Shown: piece after piece, positions 6,165 through 61,723 of the stretch
How positions within the stretch are numbered: the stretch's first letter is position 1
Layout: the number at the start of each line of letters is the position of its first letter
Assembly: GCA_002694685.1 (NCBI GenBank)
Contig: NZMW01000004.1
Location: forward strand, 492,632-556,631
Direction of reading: 5' to 3'
DNA length: 64,000 nucleotides
Origin: Balneola sp.
GTDB taxonomy: Bacteria; Bacteroidota; Rhodothermia; Balneolales; Balneolaceae
Notes under the pieces: model-generated
Database searches by the model: none
What the model was told of the DNA's origin: nothing
Seen by the model: only the letters and a program-made list of their open reading frames with translations
Position numbers and translations under genes: made by a program

Positions 6165-6932
6165 TTAAGAAGGCAGGTCTTTAGCCTCGTTCCATAACAC
6201 ATCCATCTCTTCCAGGGAAGCATCTTTGAGGGCCTTGTTTTGTTCTTTTAACTTCTCCTCAATATATCTGAAGCGGTATTCGAATTTAGAGTTGGTTTTG
6301 CGAAGACTATCTTCGGCGTTTAATTCAAAATATCTACTCACATTCACCATAGAGAAGAGTACATCCCCAAACTCGTCCGCTAGCTCATCCGGGTCGTTTC
6401 GTTCAAGAGCATCCCGAAATTCATGAAGTTCTTCATCCAGCTTTTCCCAGGCTAATTTCCATTCGGGCCAGTCAAAACCGACATTAGCTGCTTTTTCCTG
6501 CATCCGTTGTGCGCGGATTAAAGCAGGGAGTTGTGCCGGTAATCCATCAAGCGTAGATTTCTTGCCTTCTTTCAGTTTGATGTTTTCCCAATTCTCGGAA
6601 ACCTGACCTTCTCCATCAACTTCTGTATCTCCAAAAACATGCGGGTGCCTACGGATAAGCTTTTCCATCAGCGTGTAGATTACATCACCAATATCAAAGG
6701 TCTCGGTTTCAGTGGCCATTTTTGAGTGAAACACTACATGGAGCAATAAGTCGCCCAGCTCCTTTTTAAACTCATCGAAATCCTGATTATCCAAGGCATC
6801 AATAGCTTCATACGCTTCTTCAATCAAATTGTCTTTAATAGACTCGTGTGTCTGTTTACGATCCCATGGACATTCTTTTCTCAGAATAGCGACGAGTTCT
6901 ACAAGATCCTCAAACTTCCGGCTTGGCTTCAT
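6165..6932 (-). CDS. mazG: Nucleoside triphosphate pyrophosphohydrolase MazG
   Basis: Hydrolyses (d)NTPs to NMP and pyrophosphate, a housecleaning enzyme of the all-alpha NTP-PPase fold. The 255-residue protein has two MazG repeats. The first carries the metal-binding set E38, E39, E42 and E58-x-x-D61, followed by the RRHPHVFGD motif near residue 95; the second, around residues 170-215, keeps EE-x-x-E and DEFGD, so both sites look intact. The CPWD motif at residues 21-24 is typical. The leader between this gene and the upstream minus-strand gene at 7010 holds an inverted heptamer repeat array that would end up in the mRNA if the genes are cotranscribed. Confidence 0.97.
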   Translation of the reverse strand: MKPSRKFEDLVELVAILRKECPWDRKQTHESIKDNLIEEAYEAIDALDNQDFDEFKKELGDLLLHVVFHSKMATETETFDIGDVIYTLMEKLIRRHPHVFGDTEVDGEGQVSENWENIKLKEGKKSTLDGLPAQLPALIRAQRMQEKAANVGFDWPEWKLAWEKLDEELHEFRDALERNDPDELADEFGDVLFSMVNVSRYFELNAEDSLRKTNSKFEYRFRYIEEKLKEQNKALKDASLEEMDVLWNEAKDLPS

Positions 6933-6937
6933 ACAGA

Positions 6938-7007
6938 AATGTTAAGTGTTAAATTTTGAATGTTAAATGCGTTCAAATTTAACACTTAACATTGAGCATT
7001 TAACATT
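6938..7007. repeat. Inverted arrays of heptamer repeats, pseudoknot-like
   Basis: The 70 bp between mazG and the next gene are almost wholly built from 7-bp units: TGTTAAG, TGTTAAA, TTTTGAA, TGTTAAA (6940-6967), then in reverse GTTCAAA, TTTAACA, CTTAACA, TTGAGCA, TTTAACA (6971-7005). This gives a perfect 19-bp inverted repeat, 6938-6956 with 6975-6993, and a second perfect 12-bp inverted repeat, 6959-6970 with 6996-7007, interleaved with the first. In RNA the two stems are arranged like an H-type pseudoknot, although both may also switch register because the units repeat. Confidence 0.85.
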
Positions 7008-7009
7008 AA

Positions 7010-8278
7010 TTACGTTTTCTTCTTCTTCTTTTTGGCTGCGGGGAAGAGGATGTTGTTCAGGATAAGTCTATAGCCCGGACTGTTGGGGTGCAGGGCTAAA
7101 TCTGTGGGGGGGTCATTGACACGGTGAGTATAATCTTCAGGATCGTGCCCGGCGTAAAAGGTGAAGGTGCCTCTGCCATAATTTCCATGAATATATTTTA
7201 CCTGCTCACGTCCCGGAGACTCTCCCAAAATAACGACCGAAGATTTTACTTTTTCTTTTCGGAAGGCTGTGGTCTGACCGTAGAAACCTCGAACACTACT
7301 CACATGATTCTGAGTAAGCATGGTTGGAACCGGATCCCATTTTGCTGAAAATTCAAAAAGCGTAAAAAAGTCCAGCGATTGATCCACCCGATTAATACTG
7401 ACGGGCACATCAATATTTGCATGCTCATACTCACTTGGATTGAGAACGATGCTGAAGTTTTCGAAAGCCAGTGATTTGCTAAAATCCAGTTTCTGCTGAG
7501 CGTTTGGGTCGGTCGGATCTCCGTCAAATTGTTCGGGCGCTATATCAATACCTTCAGCTGCAAGGGCGATATCAAAGGTGTCGGTTCCCGAGCACATTGC
7601 AAAAAGGAATCCACCATTCCCCACATATCTTTTAATGGTTCTGGCAACTTCTTTCTTCTGTTCACTCACGGAAGAATACCCTAGATTTTGTGCCATTGCC
7701 TCCATCTGCTTAACCTGAGCAATATACCATGGCATATTGCGATAGCTGGCCCAAAATTTCCCATATTGTCCGGTAAAATCTTCATGGTGAAGGTGAAGCC
7801 AGTCATATTCATCAAGCTTGCCTTCCAAAACCTCAACATCCCAAATCTTGTCATATTCAACTTCAGCATAAGTAAGAGCCAGTGTTACGGCATCATCCCA
7901 CGGAAGGGCTTGGTCGGGTGTGTAAACGGCAATTTTCGGGGATTTCTCTAAATTAACAACAGCCGTGTTGCTGCTATTGCTCTCTACTTCGGCGATCAAC
8001 CTTTGGGCTTCAGATGCAGAAATTGTTTGCAGGGATACGTTACGAAGCCGGCTTTTTCTGATGATATCATTTTCAGCCTTTGCAAGGAAGCTTCCTCCTC
8101 GATGATTGAGTAGCCATTGTGCAGTGTAACCATCCGTAATGTGATTGAACATCACACCGTATGCTTTCAGGTGGTTGGTTTGAGAAGCATCCATCGAAAT
8201 GAGTACATGCTGTTGGGCTACAACCGCGAAGATTGGACTCAACACAAATATAAAAATGGTCAATGTTCTCTTGATCAT
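7010..8278 (-). CDS. Secreted GATase-like protein (often mislabelled asparagine synthetase B)
   Basis: A 422-residue protein with a clear signal peptide (first ~21 residues, ending VVAQ) and an odd C-terminal KKKKKKT tail. Families like this in Bacteroidota are, as I recall, deposited as 'asparagine synthetase B', but I see neither the N-terminal Cys2 of class II amidotransferases nor the SGGxD ATP site. Instead a GNGGFLFAMCSGTDTFD segment looks like a class I amidotransferase/ThuA nucleophile elbow, and YGRGTFTFYAGHDPEDYTH resembles the ThuA C-terminal histidine motif. So the fold is probably GATase1/ThuA-like; the substrate is unknown. It starts 1 bp after the stop of the TPR gene, so the two are translated as one operon with maf. 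Confidence 0.6.
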   Translation of the reverse strand: MIKRTLTIFIFVLSPIFAVVAQQHVLISMDASQTNHLKAYGVMFNHITDGYTAQWLLNHRGGSFLAKAENDIIRKSRLRNVSLQTISASEAQRLIAEVESNSSNTAVVNLEKSPKIAVYTPDQALPWDDAVTLALTYAEVEYDKIWDVEVLEGKLDEYDWLHLHHEDFTGQYGKFWASYRNMPWYIAQVKQMEAMAQNLGYSSVSEQKKEVARTIKRYVGNGGFLFAMCSGTDTFDIALAAEGIDIAPEQFDGDPTDPNAQQKLDFSKSLAFENFSIVLNPSEYEHANIDVPVSINRVDQSLDFFTLFEFSAKWDPVPTMLTQNHVSSVRGFYGQTTAFRKEKVKSSVVILGESPGREQVKYIHGNYGRGTFTFYAGHDPEDYTHRVNDPPTDLALHPNSPGYRLILNNILFPAAKKKKKKT

Positions 8279-45073: not shown

Positions 45074-45192
45074 TGACCAATGACCAATGACCAATGACCA
45101 AATCTATAATTTTATTTTTTGACTTTAGGAACCTTAAACGCAACCTTAGGTCAATCGTCAATCGTCAATCGTCAATCGTCAATCGTCAATCG
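45074..45192. repeat. Two short tandem heptamer arrays upstream of rsmA
   Basis: Four exact copies of TGACCAA at 45074-45101 and six exact copies of TCAATCG at 45151-45192, with 49 bp between them. The second unit read in register (CGTCAAT) matches the reverse complement of the first (GGTCATT) at five of seven positions, so the arrays look like a decayed inverted pair. They lie between the divergent 7TM-HD and rsmA genes, 6 bp before the rsmA start. Such exact copies can change number by slippage. Confidence 0.9.
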
Positions 45193-45198
45193 TCGCCA

Positions 45199-45972
45199 AT
45201 GTCATTCAGAACCAAAAAAAGCCTGGGGCAACATTTCTTAACCGACCAGGTTGTCGTTTATCAAATTATTGATGCCATAGTCGCAGGAAAAGAGGATCGT
45301 GTAATTGAAATTGGCCCGGGAACGGGAGCTTTAACAAAGTGGCTTGCCGAGAAGTTTGATAATCTGCATGCGATAGAACTTGATCAGCGTGCGGTTAACG
45401 TCCTCAAAGAAGAAGTGAGTAACATCACAATTCACCAGCAAGATGTGCTTAAGGTAATTTGGCAGGAAATGGTAGAAGCCGATAAAAACAATGTGGTGAT
45501 CGGAAACCTTCCGTATTACATAACGACGCCCATTCTATTTGACCTGCTTGAAAACCGAACGTTGTTTACAGAAGCCATCCTGATGATGCAGAAAGAAGTA
45601 GCTGAACGATTGGTTGCAGACCCGTCATCCAAACAATATGGTATCCTCAGTGTGCAAACCCAGCTATTTTGTACACCTGAAATTTTATTTGAAGTGAGCC
45701 GTCACTCATTCAGCCCACCTCCAAAAGTGACGAGCGCAGTTATCAAATTGAAGTTCGATAAACCAAGCCTCCCTTATGCTGATGATACGCTGAAGAGAAT
45801 TGTAAGAACCGCCTTTAATCAGCGCCGCAAAAAATTAAGTAATTCTTTGAAGCCTGTATTGGGAGATTATCTTCCTGAAGGTTACAACTTTGATGACAGA
45901 GCCGAGCATTGGGAACCTGAAACCTATGCAAAGTTGGCAGAGCATCTAGAGCAGACTGACAACTTATCTTAA
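45199..45972 (+). CDS. rsmA: 16S rRNA dimethyladenosine transferase
   Basis: Dimethylates A1518 and A1519 of 16S rRNA during 30S assembly. The 257-residue protein opens with SFRTKKSLGQHFLTD, has the SAM motif VIEIGPGTGALT (about residues 37-48) and the catalytic NLPYYITTP (about 106-114), complete for the KsgA family. The start at 45199 gives the usual N-terminus; an upstream frame from 45094 runs through the heptamer arrays and adds a 35-residue repeat extension without family support. It is followed by the groES promoter region after 167 bp. Confidence 0.97.
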   Translation: MSFRTKKSLGQHFLTDQVVVYQIIDAIVAGKEDRVIEIGPGTGALTKWLAEKFDNLHAIELDQRAVNVLKEEVSNITIHQQDVLKVIWQEMVEADKNNVVIGNLPYYITTPILFDLLENRTLFTEAILMMQKEVAERLVADPSSKQYGILSVQTQLFCTPEILFEVSRHSFSPPPKVTSAVIKLKFDKPSLPYADDTLKRIVRTAFNQRRKKLSNSLKPVLGDYLPEGYNFDDRAEHWEPETYAKLAEHLEQTDNLS

Positions 45973-59806: not shown

Positions 59807-61606
59807 ATGAGCGAAAATTCAGCTAAGAAAAAGACCGGCGCAGAAAATATTAATTGGGACTTATCCGATCTTTATTCATCAAACGAAGACCCTCAACTAG
59901 CCAAAGACAAAAAGAAAGTTTTAGAACAAGCTGAGGCTTTTGGTAACAAGTATCGAGGAAAAGTCTCTGAGTTGGATGCAGGTGCATTCAAGGGCATGCT
60001 GGATGAATACGAAGATATTTTAGATTTAGCCGGAAAGTTAGGCTCTTTCGCATATTTGCAATGGTCAACCGATACCACCAATACGAGTTATGGAAAGCTG
60101 GTTGCTGAGTCTAATGAGCTATCATCTGAAGTGAGTCAAAAACTGGTTTTCTTAGATGTAGAATGGCTTGAAATTCCGGATGAAGATGCTCATAAGCTGA
60201 TCGAGAGTGAAGAACTTAGTAAGTATAAGCATTACCTGGAGAGTTCTCGACGGTACAAAGAACATGTGCTCGAGGAAAAGCAAGAGCAGATTTTGTCCGC
60301 GAAATCAGTTACGGGTAGAAGTGCGTGGGTTCGCTTTTTTGATGAAACGCTGGGCTCAGCCAAATTTGAACTCGATGGTGAAGAACTTAGTGAGCAAGAA
60401 GTACTTAGTAAGCTACATGAAAGCGACCGTGATTTAAGGATACGTGCACATGCTTCTCTTACTAATAAATTTAATGATCTTAGCCGCTCATTGACCTTTG
60501 TATTTAATACCCTCCTGGCTGACAAATCGACCAATGACAAGCTGCGTAAGTACGATAGCTGGATTGACTCCAGAAACCTCTCCAATCAAACCGATAAGGA
60601 AACGGTTAACGCTCTTGTTGATTCCGTGACTTCAAAGTATGATTTGGTTCAGCGGTACTACAAACTCAAGCAGCAGTTGCTCGGGCTCGACGAAATGAAG
60701 GATTATGATCGGTATGCCCCGATTATGAAAAATGAGGCAACGATAGATTGGACTTCGGCAAAAGAAATGGTGCTGGATTCTTACACCAATTTCCATCCAC
60801 AGATGGGGAAAATTACCGAAGAGTTTTTTGAAAAAAGCTGGATTGATGCAGCCATTAAACCTGGCAAAAGAGGAGGTGCGTATTCGGCAGGTACAGTTCC
60901 GTCTGCTCACCCATATGTTTTTATGAATTTCGATGGAAAAATAAGGGATGTGCAAACACTGGCTCATGAACTTGGGCACGGTGTACATCAGTACTTATCG
61001 AGACAGCAAGGAGTTCTCCAATCTTCTACTCCGTTAACTACCGCTGAGACGGCATCTGTATTTGGTGAAATGCTGGTTTTCCAGAAGTTGATGAAAGAGC
61101 TGGATGATCCAAAAGAAAAACTAGCTCTTCTAATAGGCAAAATTGACGATACCATAGCTACCGTTTTTCGTCAGATTTCCATGAATCGTTTTGAGCATGC
61201 CATGCATACAGCTCGCAGAGAAGAAGGCGAATTGACAACCGAACGGTTTTCAGAACTTTGGATGGAACAGCAAAAAGCTCTTTATGGGGATTCAGTTTCA
61301 CTCACCGATGAGTATGGAATTTGGTGGAGTTACATTCCTCATTTCTTGCACACCCCGGGTTATGTTTATGCGTATGCATTTGGGGAGTTACTGGTTCTGG
61401 CCCTCTATGAGGAATACACTCAAAGACCTGATGGATTCTCAGATCGCTATCTGGAATTATTGAGTGCTGGAGGTTCTGAATGGCCTCAAGACTTAGTGGC
61501 TAAAATGGGTCTGGATATTACTCAGCCTGATTTCTGGAACAAGGGACTGTCTTCTTTCGAACGAATGGTGGAAGAAGCAGAAGAAATGGCGAGAGTGATA
61601 AAGTGA
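59807..61606 (+). CDS. pepF: Oligoendopeptidase F
   Basis: Cytosolic zinc peptidase (M3 family, subfamily M3B) that degrades short peptides. The 599-residue protein has the HEXXH zinc site HELGHGVHQYL (His387, Glu388, His391) and the third ligand Glu about 25 residues later in TAETASVFGE. The N-terminal part (about residues 1-190) is the helical lid seen in PepF. ATG 59807 lies 10 bp after an AATTAAGGA stretch that may be a ribosome site. The stop lies inside an octamer repeat (GTGATAAA), part of the inverted array downstream. Confidence 0.95.
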   Translation: MSENSAKKKTGAENINWDLSDLYSSNEDPQLAKDKKKVLEQAEAFGNKYRGKVSELDAGAFKGMLDEYEDILDLAGKLGSFAYLQWSTDTTNTSYGKLVAESNELSSEVSQKLVFLDVEWLEIPDEDAHKLIESEELSKYKHYLESSRRYKEHVLEEKQEQILSAKSVTGRSAWVRFFDETLGSAKFELDGEELSEQEVLSKLHESDRDLRIRAHASLTNKFNDLSRSLTFVFNTLLADKSTNDKLRKYDSWIDSRNLSNQTDKETVNALVDSVTSKYDLVQRYYKLKQQLLGLDEMKDYDRYAPIMKNEATIDWTSAKEMVLDSYTNFHPQMGKITEEFFEKSWIDAAIKPGKRGGAYSAGTVPSAHPYVFMNFDGKIRDVQTLAHELGHGVHQYLSRQQGVLQSSTPLTTAETASVFGEMLVFQKLMKELDDPKEKLALLIGKIDDTIATVFRQISMNRFEHAMHTARREEGELTTERFSELWMEQQKALYGDSVSLTDEYGIWWSYIPHFLHTPGYVYAYAFGELLVLALYEEYTQRPDGFSDRYLELLSAGGSEWPQDLVAKMGLDITQPDFWNKGLSSFERMVEEAEEMARVIK

Positions 61607-61723
61607 TATAGTGAGGTTGCCGGTTTATATCTTAAAGATCGTTAAATACAGAACCGGCAGTACAAACAGATTTGGGTGAAATATCACCATATCCAACACT
61701 CTATCACTTTATCACCAAATCAC
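61595..61723. repeat. Inverted octamer repeat arrays after pepF
   Basis: The left part repeats GTGATAAA, GTGATATA, GTGAGG from 61595 to 61616, covering the pepF stop codon (61604-61606). The right part is the inverse, CACTCTAT, CACTTTAT, CACCAAAT, CACC, from 61697 to 61723. Left 61595-61612 pairs with right 61698-61715 at 17 of 18 positions, 85 bp apart. The transcript could form a long stem that buries the pepF stop. Confidence 0.8.

Follow-up and report, generated by a model that had tools for sequence, protein, structure and literature searches.

Among the described tandem repeats built on a 7-bp unit are the heptanucleotide repeats of Calothrix, which we take to be those named STRR. They share the tandem 7-bp organization with the arrays considered here, but no foldback arrangement appears in the passages of PMC4692102 that describe them. 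The GGGAATC heptamer repeats of Xanthomonas, as presented in the corresponding passages (Rehm et al. 2015, PMC4692102), are intergenic 7-bp tandem units that occur in 70 and 75 convergent inverted pairs, the type of pair being usually kept. Both the intergenic 7-bp units and the inverted pairs recall the arrays of Balneolaceae, and pairs called 'convergent' in that text would, if we understand the term correctly, put G on the 5' arm, as in the Balneolaceae foldbacks. Nevertheless, the Xanthomonas repeats are described there as G-rich, built on one unit and studied as quadruplexes, whereas those of Balneolaceae are AT-rich, come in many unit spellings (hereafter dialects) and form close foldbacks behind stop codons; an identity with the GGGAATC/G-quadruplex type was discarded, the units being AT-rich with an arm G+C of.21. 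Another parallel is the P6b stem of the Nostoc trnL intron, which is built on 7-nt repeats (TDNGATT or NNTGAGT); in the part of PMC4476775 concerned with this stem, one repeat class is said to have repeatedly replaced the other at the same place, and stem length to vary by repeat units on one or both sides. This is, however, one cyanobacterial intron and not a dispersed intercistronic class. The TAACTGA repeats of Beggiatoaceae, cyanobacteria and Bacteroidetes (MacGregor 2015, PMC4679880) likewise form intergenic 7-bp arrays, often adjoining start codons, with other heptamers mixed in, and they are missing from some close relatives; but the relevant passages give the main genome 169 direct sets, one indirect set and one unit, while the Balneolaceae arrays are inverted and use many units. 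Identity with TAACTGA was also rejected, neither its unit nor its direct orientation being found, with related heptads present at mazG and rsmA of some relatives. Among the literature matches listed for heptamer-type repeats, no inverted heptads of Balneolaceae or Bacteroidetes occur beyond the passages of PMC4679880, and foldbacks of the AT-rich, multi-dialect kind behind stop codons are described in none of the matches listed. As far as the passages of these sources go, inverted heptamer arrays are thus known from Xanthomonas and Nostoc, and the Balneolaceae form is an AT-rich, multi-dialect variant.

The window analysed here is the whole stretch of 64,000 nucleotides from Balneola sp. Within it, mazG is separated from a co-directional upstream gene by a gap of 77 bp (6933-7009), nearly all of which is filled by an inverted array of heptads (Table 1). 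The 422-aa product of the upstream gene has no Pfam-A or NCBIfam match at E 0.001, and this gene adjoins mazG in many Balneolaceae. When cut in register, the array reads AATGTTA, AGTGTTA, AATTTTG, AATGTTA, AATGCGT, TCAAATT, TAACACT, TAACATT, GAGCATT and TAACATT, that is, five forward-like units with 4-7 of 7 matches to AATGTTA followed by five reverse-like units with 5-7 of 7 matches to TAACATT. An earlier note on this DNA had counted nine units, four in one direction and five in the other; the heptamer make-up that it described holds, but the units number ten. Tandem Repeats Finder independently returned period 7 at 6937-6969 and 6977-7007, and neither the tandem score nor the foldback score was reached by any of 100 dinucleotide shuffles. 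A search for Rfam matches at the gathering score gave none in the window.

Table 1. Coordinates of the mazG spacer and of the two further inverted arrays in the window.
Feature	Position	Strand	Basis
mazG, nucleoside triphosphate pyrophosphohydrolase	6165..6932	-	ORF/family match
Inverted heptad array, ten 7-bp units	6938..7007	.	Repeat finding, cut in register
19-bp perfect inverted repeat, arm 1 (3' arm in mazG mRNA)	6938..6956	.	Repeat finding
19-bp perfect inverted repeat, arm 2 (5' arm in mazG mRNA)	6975..6993	.	Repeat finding
12-bp inverted repeat, arm 1 (supposed second pseudoknot stem)	6959..6970	.	Repeat finding
12-bp inverted repeat, arm 2	6996..7007	.	Repeat finding
Predicted promoter-like -7 element TAAATTTG, fitting TANNTTTG, at loop edge	6974..6981	-	Consensus given in the relevant part of PMC6847099
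Upstream co-directional gene, 422 aa	7010..8278	-	ORF
Forward TGACCAA array, x4, upstream of rsmA (other dialect of the class)	45074..45101	.	Tandem Repeats Finder
Reverse GTCAATC array, x6.4, ending 4 nt before rsmA	45150..45194	.	Tandem Repeats Finder
rsmA	45199-45972	+	ORF
Forward 8-bp array AGTGATAA, 2.6 copies, overlapping 3' end of pepF	61594..61614	.	Tandem Repeats Finder
Reverse 8-bp array CACTCTAT, 2.4 copies, partner of 61594..61614	61697..61715	.	Tandem Repeats Finder

Repeat finding also bore out the two perfect, interleaved inverted repeats of 19 and 12 bp: one arm of the 12-bp repeat lies inside the loop of the 19-bp repeat and its partner outside, which is pseudoknot geometry. 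The earlier note had seen here the geometry of an H-type pseudoknot, and as a regulatory element in the mazG leader such a structure is a rival to be weighed, the interleaved geometry being real in the window. The spacer RNA is more stable than shuffled sequences (z = -5.2 for 96 nt and -5.4 for 77 nt, with 0 of 200 shuffles as stable in each case), and so is the element folded as DNA (z = -5.9 for 96 nt, again 0 of 200). Its preferred fold, however, is a nested hairpin (-20.5 kcal/mol for the 77 nt), the minimum-energy and the centroid structure alike under a folding model that carries no pseudoknot energies. Designating the window's own genome G000 and its relatives G001 and so on, the most similar ortholog, that of G004 (73 of 77 positions identical in the alignment), keeps the 19-bp stem intact but pairs 10 of 12 positions in the 12-bp stem, with two mismatches, so that conservation or covariation of both stems is not seen in the relatives; most other species, moreover, carry other spellings. 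The interleaved pairing is probably a by-product, because the forward units of an inverted tandem array have many possible partners among the reverse units. The RNA pseudoknot was therefore rejected and appears to us highly improbable.

When a 151-bp query around the element was compared with G000, it gave 19 BLAST matches at 12 places including itself, and most of the places inspected lie in short gaps between genes. Gaps between open reading frames were then surveyed in eight Gracilimonas-like genomes, altogether 643 gaps (95.7 kb). G000 contributed the window and 400 kb, G006 contributed 460 kb, and six other congeners 40-60 kb each, taken around mazG; apart from 400 kb of G006, the stretches of relatives were centred on mazG, and the gene contexts depend on open reading frames called by a simple method. 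At period 7 a tandem score of 10 or more was found in 38 of the 643 gaps versus 2.9 in shuffles, at period 14 in 24 versus 2.5 and at period 21 in 17 versus 1.3; period 8 was weaker (14 versus 2.8), and the other periods of 3-20 gave 0-6 gaps. By a joint test of foldback and lag-7 identity, heptad foldbacks occupy 27 of the 643 gaps, while five shuffles gave 1, 2, 5, 2 and 2. The mazG spacer accounts for five of the 27, each in a different species, so that 22 remain without mazG. A looser control taking the best lag among 4-11 was less clean, with lag 7 in 26 gaps, 11 in 13, and 8 and 9 in 9 each. In the two most-sampled genomes the density is 17 (G000) and 24 (G006) per Mb, while the 60 kb of G004 yielded none by the joint test. 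A scan of 464 kb without division into genes and gaps gave 11 foldbacks with a lag-7 identity of at least.6; nine of them fell in gaps, and one of the two others is the G004 mazG spacer, lying inside a miscalled frame. The two marks of the heptamer-array kind (TAACTGA, GGGAATC, Calothrix), over-representation of a 7-bp unit and a dispersed, mainly intergenic location, are both present, and the 11 further places in the genome together with the survey uphold the suggestion that the element belongs to a class and is not one accident.

The units vary from place to place and include AATGTTA, ATTCAAA/ATTAAAG, AAAGTGA, TGACCAA/GTCAATC, AGTATTG, TTAGCAG, the 8-bp GTGATAAA and others. In a wider set of 100 elements, which is mostly BLAST-found with dialects A and B (dialect labels being assigned by eye throughout) and includes orthologs, the median arm is 24 bp and the median loop 12 nt, with a G+C of.21 in arms and.38 in loops. 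The exact dialect-B pattern occurs in 17 of 296 genomes of the phylum, scattered, and its reversed control in 5. Upstream of rsmA the window holds the same plan in other units, as had been proposed, with a loop of 43 nt and a foldback score reached by 0 of 100 shuffles. The inverted short-repeat plan also recurs at pepF, where the earlier note had placed an element after the gene; the units there are of 8 bp, and the reading frame of pepF, ending at 61606, runs into the first copy at its 3' end. Further octamer arrays of GTGATAAA/TATCACCA occur at L218 12247, L222 16048 and L146 923, as a sister class of period 8.

Our preferred account, which we hold tentatively and at somewhat less than even confidence, is that the mazG spacer belongs to a genome-wide intercistronic class of 7-bp-unit foldbacks, made by slippage and template switching and kept for its hairpin. 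The strongest rival, a doubtful but serious possibility, is that heptad slippage and template switching within hairpins make and homogenise such foldbacks in free spacer DNA with no function at all. The over-representation of 7-mers in many bacterial genomes, for which slippage has been proposed (Mrazek 2007, as told in the passages of PMC4679880 at issue), is in keeping with this purely mutational origin, and so is the multitude of dialects. Gene context bears on both. The share of gaps that hold a heptad foldback is 21 of 408 where the flanking genes are co-directional, 4 of 94 where they converge and 2 of 141 where they diverge (p =.09 for divergent gaps against all others); the occurrence of foldbacks in all contexts speaks for the mutational origin, and their presence in convergent and divergent gaps counts against the preferred account. 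Within co-directional gaps the position is distinctive. The 21 survey foldbacks lie a median of 2 nt behind the stop and 14 nt from the start, 16 versus 4 being nearer the stop (p =.012); without mazG (n = 16) the distances are 3 and 19.5 nt, with 12 versus 3 nearer the stop (p =.035). The wider set agrees (n = 72: 3 nt behind the stop and 14 nt before the start, 52 versus 16 nearer the stop; without mazG, n = 65: 3 and 16 nt), while 31 non-heptad foldbacks lie 37 nt from the stop and 58 nt from the start, 17 versus 14. A preference of stop codons for the 5' arm was not upheld (36 elements versus 21, p =.06, in a count biased by gap calling).

A stop-proximal position, with fewer copies in divergent gaps, would also suit AU-rich bidirectional transcription terminators; hairpins resembling terminators, present outside the family in some of the hppD-hmgA spacers, speak for this reading as well. 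Against it, a consensus scan for a GC-rich stem followed by a T-run found no site in 6938-7007, the G+C of the arms is as low as given above, and a complete stop of transcription between hppD and hmgA would be unexpected. We regard terminators as a poor candidate, with very little probability left to them.

The arms, furthermore, have a polarity. In the 100 elements the G of arm G-C pairs lies on the 5' arm in 290 pairs and the C in 67 (83 elements versus 9), and in the 27 survey elements the figures are 98 versus 27 pairs and 21 versus 3 elements; the bias persists without mazG, both in the survey (89 versus 26 pairs, 16 versus 3 elements, p =.004) and in the wider set (77 versus 8 elements), and 52 non-heptad foldbacks show none (152 versus 175 pairs, 20 versus 24 elements). 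Since a foldback has the same reading on either strand, the direction of transcription cannot account for this polarity. The pertinent part of PMC8794818 links template switching to a surplus of G-C and U-A pairs in the stems of RNAs. The G-C bias seen here fits that asymmetry, but A, not T, is commoner on the 5' arm (907 versus 755), and non-heptad foldbacks show the same (354 versus 258); the polarity, equal for both strands, partly resembles the asymmetry ascribed there to template switching and in this respect favours the mutational origin.

The comparison of mazG between species drew on 110 loci, namely 80 named contigs and the 30 best among the matches to 57 related genomes, 54 of which had one. 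Of these loci 80 (L019-L067, L084, L099-L128) were analysed, the other 30 being more distant; dropping eleven duplicate assemblies left 69 rows. Where another gene lies upstream of mazG, scores were taken over the 90 nt preceding mazG instead of a gap. All 24 rows of the Gracilimonas-Balneola clade carry tandem heptads, and 22 carry a foldback reached by at most 3 of 100 shuffles, the two failing this level being L109 (11 of 100) and L103 (55 of 100). Among more distant rows with at least 40 nt, tandem heptads were seen in 6 of 33 and foldbacks at the same level in 2 of 33; the remaining 12 rows have less than 40 nt, most of them no spacer at all. Three dialects, labelled by eye in 21 rows, require 5 changes on the best MazG tree against a possible minimum of 2, and the well-supported branches alone force at least two dialect changes per dialect. 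Shuffled labels need 7.4 changes on average and as few as 5 in 3 of 200 cases; the dialects are therefore inherited but have switched. The spacers of G000 and G004 agree at 73 of 77 bases, as against only 33 of 75 fourfold sites of mazG, and G001, G005 and G007 have other mazG dialects although their MazG is at least as similar. RNAalifold on 13 dialect-A spacers gave a weak consensus (-0.85 kcal/mol, with compensatory cells in 4 of 15 pairs), in our opinion because the arms pair in shifted registers.

A second site, between hppD and hmgA, behaves similarly. Where hppD lies upstream, tandem repeats are found in 12 of 12 family rows and foldbacks in 10 of 12 (at most 3 of 100 shuffles), and the dialects, again by eye, are B in G000, G004 and G008, A in G001, G005 and G007, and others in G002, G006, G014 and G019. 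The RNA of these 12 spacers folds with z from -1.2 to -6.1, three being weak (-1.2, -1.2 and -1.7). Three more family loci, 52-53% identical, have no adjoining hppD, and G003 gave no match. Outside the family nine loci have hppD upstream, two of them without a spacer; all seven spacers above 20 nt fold (z -2.4 to -7.4, one spacer being 471 nt long), yet tandem heptads are seen in none of the six scored, one of which passed the foldback test. At mazG and at hppD-hmgA, then, spelling differs between species in both arms together. This regular occupation of the same spacer (22 of 24 and 10 of 12 family rows), as well as the presence of folded spacers of another make at hppD-hmgA outside the family, tells against foldbacks arising as a mere by-product.

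The dispersed, similar copies might also suggest a mobile element of REP or MITE type copied into gene ends, the more so as the genome holds five Y1_Tnp transposase genes. However, most of the sites compared are shared. At 7 of 10 further G000 loci of this dialect an array lies between the same homologous flanks in another species, in a comparison of loci already fetched as array hits, in which absences are therefore unsampled; at an eighth (L012/L159) the interval is common and the content differs, at L010 the array of the other species (L160) lies on the opposite side of the shared gene and thus at a different site, and L011 has no partner among the array-hit loci compared. Over whole alignments, ortholog arrays are.61-.97 identical (mean.77) and arrays of the same dialect at different sites have a mean of.62 and a maximum of.83 (n = 210), so that the ranges overlap. 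Nor did the 3.2-4.5 kb surrounding the five Y1_Tnp genes contain any heptad foldback between genes. With no transposase linked to the repeats and 7 of 10 loci shared with another species, the REP/RAYT or MITE candidate was rejected, and a mobile origin seems very unlikely.

Several other observations were made at these loci. At L015 near 6878 the arms differ from those of L191 and L200 at 1 of 69 bases (G000 versus G001/G007), and the loop of G000 is 23 nt shorter, so that loop length changed while the arms were kept. A dispersed GC-rich REP-like repeat, GACGCAGAGCG / CGCTCTGCGTC, occurs in L013 near 6350-6420, L218 15727-15916, L224 4264-4621 and L282 3189-3261; in L013 it seems to lie within the 3' arm of a heptad foldback whose G006 counterpart is uninterrupted, and in L282 a copy pair is about 0.6 kb from a Y1_Tnp gene. 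Just beyond the array of L014, near 7066-7089, stands GGGGGTGTTCTGGATTCGACGGGT, which we presume to resemble the start of tmRNA.

How closely some sites are conserved bears on a further alternative, namely that the tandem heptads are sequence-specific sites for a DNA- or RNA-binding protein. Same-dialect ortholog arrays are.77-.99 identical where aligned, while fourfold sites of the flanking genes agree at.30-.47, and heptads adjoin the start of rsmA in 9 of 9 genus members, there in several dialects; for the TAACTGA repeats near start codons, the passages of PMC4679880 in question propose such binding. At rsmA an inverted partner (at most 3 of 100 shuffles) is present in 4 of the 9, and a fifth, G003, has a separate foldback nearby. 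The strong conservation favours binding sites, exceeds what a hairpin alone would need, and in this respect counts against the preferred account; it likewise counts against a by-product without function, since ortholog arrays are more conserved than fourfold sites. On the other hand, the dialect differs between species at the same gene, and many dialects coexist in one genome, which leaves binding arrays improbable.

Substitutions within a dialect cut both ways. Substitutions are half as frequent in paired columns (56 of 535) as in unpaired columns (56 of 282), which speaks against a functionless by-product. In contrast, among the pairs compared within dialects 212 show no change, 4 have compensatory changes, pairing survives a one-sided change in 13 and is broken in 31, and 18 have gaps; the 31 broken pairs compare with 34.7 expected by permutation (sd 1.8). 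The covariation proposed as a check in the earlier note is hence weak base by base within a dialect, but across dialects both arms do differ together. Mismatches in the arms, read on the sense strand, are G-U in 68 and A-C in 51 cases, without significant bias (p =.14; mazG 16 versus 21; hppD-hmgA 9 versus 3, p =.15); selection on sense RNA is unsupported by this test, because G-U is not favoured over A-C. Both the weak compensation and the lack of significant strand bias among wobble mismatches favour the mutational by-product.

At mazG the loop has a feature of its own. In the relevant part of PMC6847099, the Bacteroidota -7 consensus is given as TANNTTTG and the mean leader of Flavobacterium johnsoniae as 33 nt. 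The predicted element TAAATTTG straddles the loop edge in G000 and G004, with TAAATTAT close by at mazG of L106, and a start 5 nt past TAAATTTG would give a mazG leader of about 37 nt that holds the 3' arm alone. TAnnTT is found on the sense strand of the loop in 20 of 23 mazG foldbacks and on the antisense strand in 2; one TAnnTT-type motif ends 31-42 nt before the mazG ATG in 23 of 23, many rows having more TAnnTT in their AT-rich arms. As a Bacteroidota sigma-A promoter (TTTG/TANNTTTG) the site has the -7-like part, the -33 TTTG not being evident by eye. Over the broad stretch from -75 to -28 the strands are not separated (sense 22 of 23 versus antisense 18 of 23), and in the mazG rows without a foldback the same stretch gives 17 versus 8 of 31. 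A promoter in the loop was dismissed as a general rule and kept for mazG only, as TAnnTT is sense in 16 and antisense in 13 of 72 co-directional foldbacks, and in 10 and 13 of 65 without mazG. In G003, where mazG is divergent from its neighbour, the motif and the 3'-arm heptads persist without a 5' arm; G021, likewise divergent, has both arms, and so does G026, where an unrelated co-directional gene lies upstream.

For the class as observed, with its period of 7, stop-proximal position, arm polarity, shared sites and differing dialects, the account that we prefer, a foldback kept for its hairpin, would work as follows. Repeat slippage may add or remove heptads. Template switching, which the part of PMC8794818 dealing with it presents as a means by which hairpins arise and are repaired, may act inside the hairpin and copy one arm onto the other. 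Through these two processes a site could be re-spelled in few steps and yet still be a foldback. A hairpin of about 20 bp between cistrons would be useful in the mRNA, its sequence being largely free; it might protect or process the 3' end of the upstream message, or keep the downstream start out of read-through translation. At several places the spelling has changed and the fold has been kept, which suggests that what counts is chiefly the hairpin and less the precise sequence. At mazG, where the loop would carry the -7 element of the gene, RNA reading through from the upstream gene would fold across the leader, and RNA from the gene's own promoter would start in the loop, hold the 3' arm alone and stay open. 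In IS10, read-through transposase mRNA is subject to fold-back inhibition; the likeness, by analogy only, is that at mazG, too, the read-through RNA would fold and the own-promoter RNA could not, gene and element being different. A bolder formulation, rather unlikely as a whole, is that Balneolaceae keep hairpins and not sequences at fixed intercistronic places, slippage and template switching providing a sequence-free maintenance with wholesale re-spelling, and that mazG has a read-through-proof leader with its promoter in the loop.

These arrays touch on the old question of how paired RNA stems change their sequence without passing through broken intermediates. With tens of foldbacks per genome, orthologs and several spellings per site, they offer replicate cases by which slippage, template switching and selection could be separated. 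If the hairpins act between cistrons, they would be an overlooked feature of the operons of these marine bacteria; if they are without action, they would show how mutation by itself is able to mimic a conserved RNA structure and its covariation.
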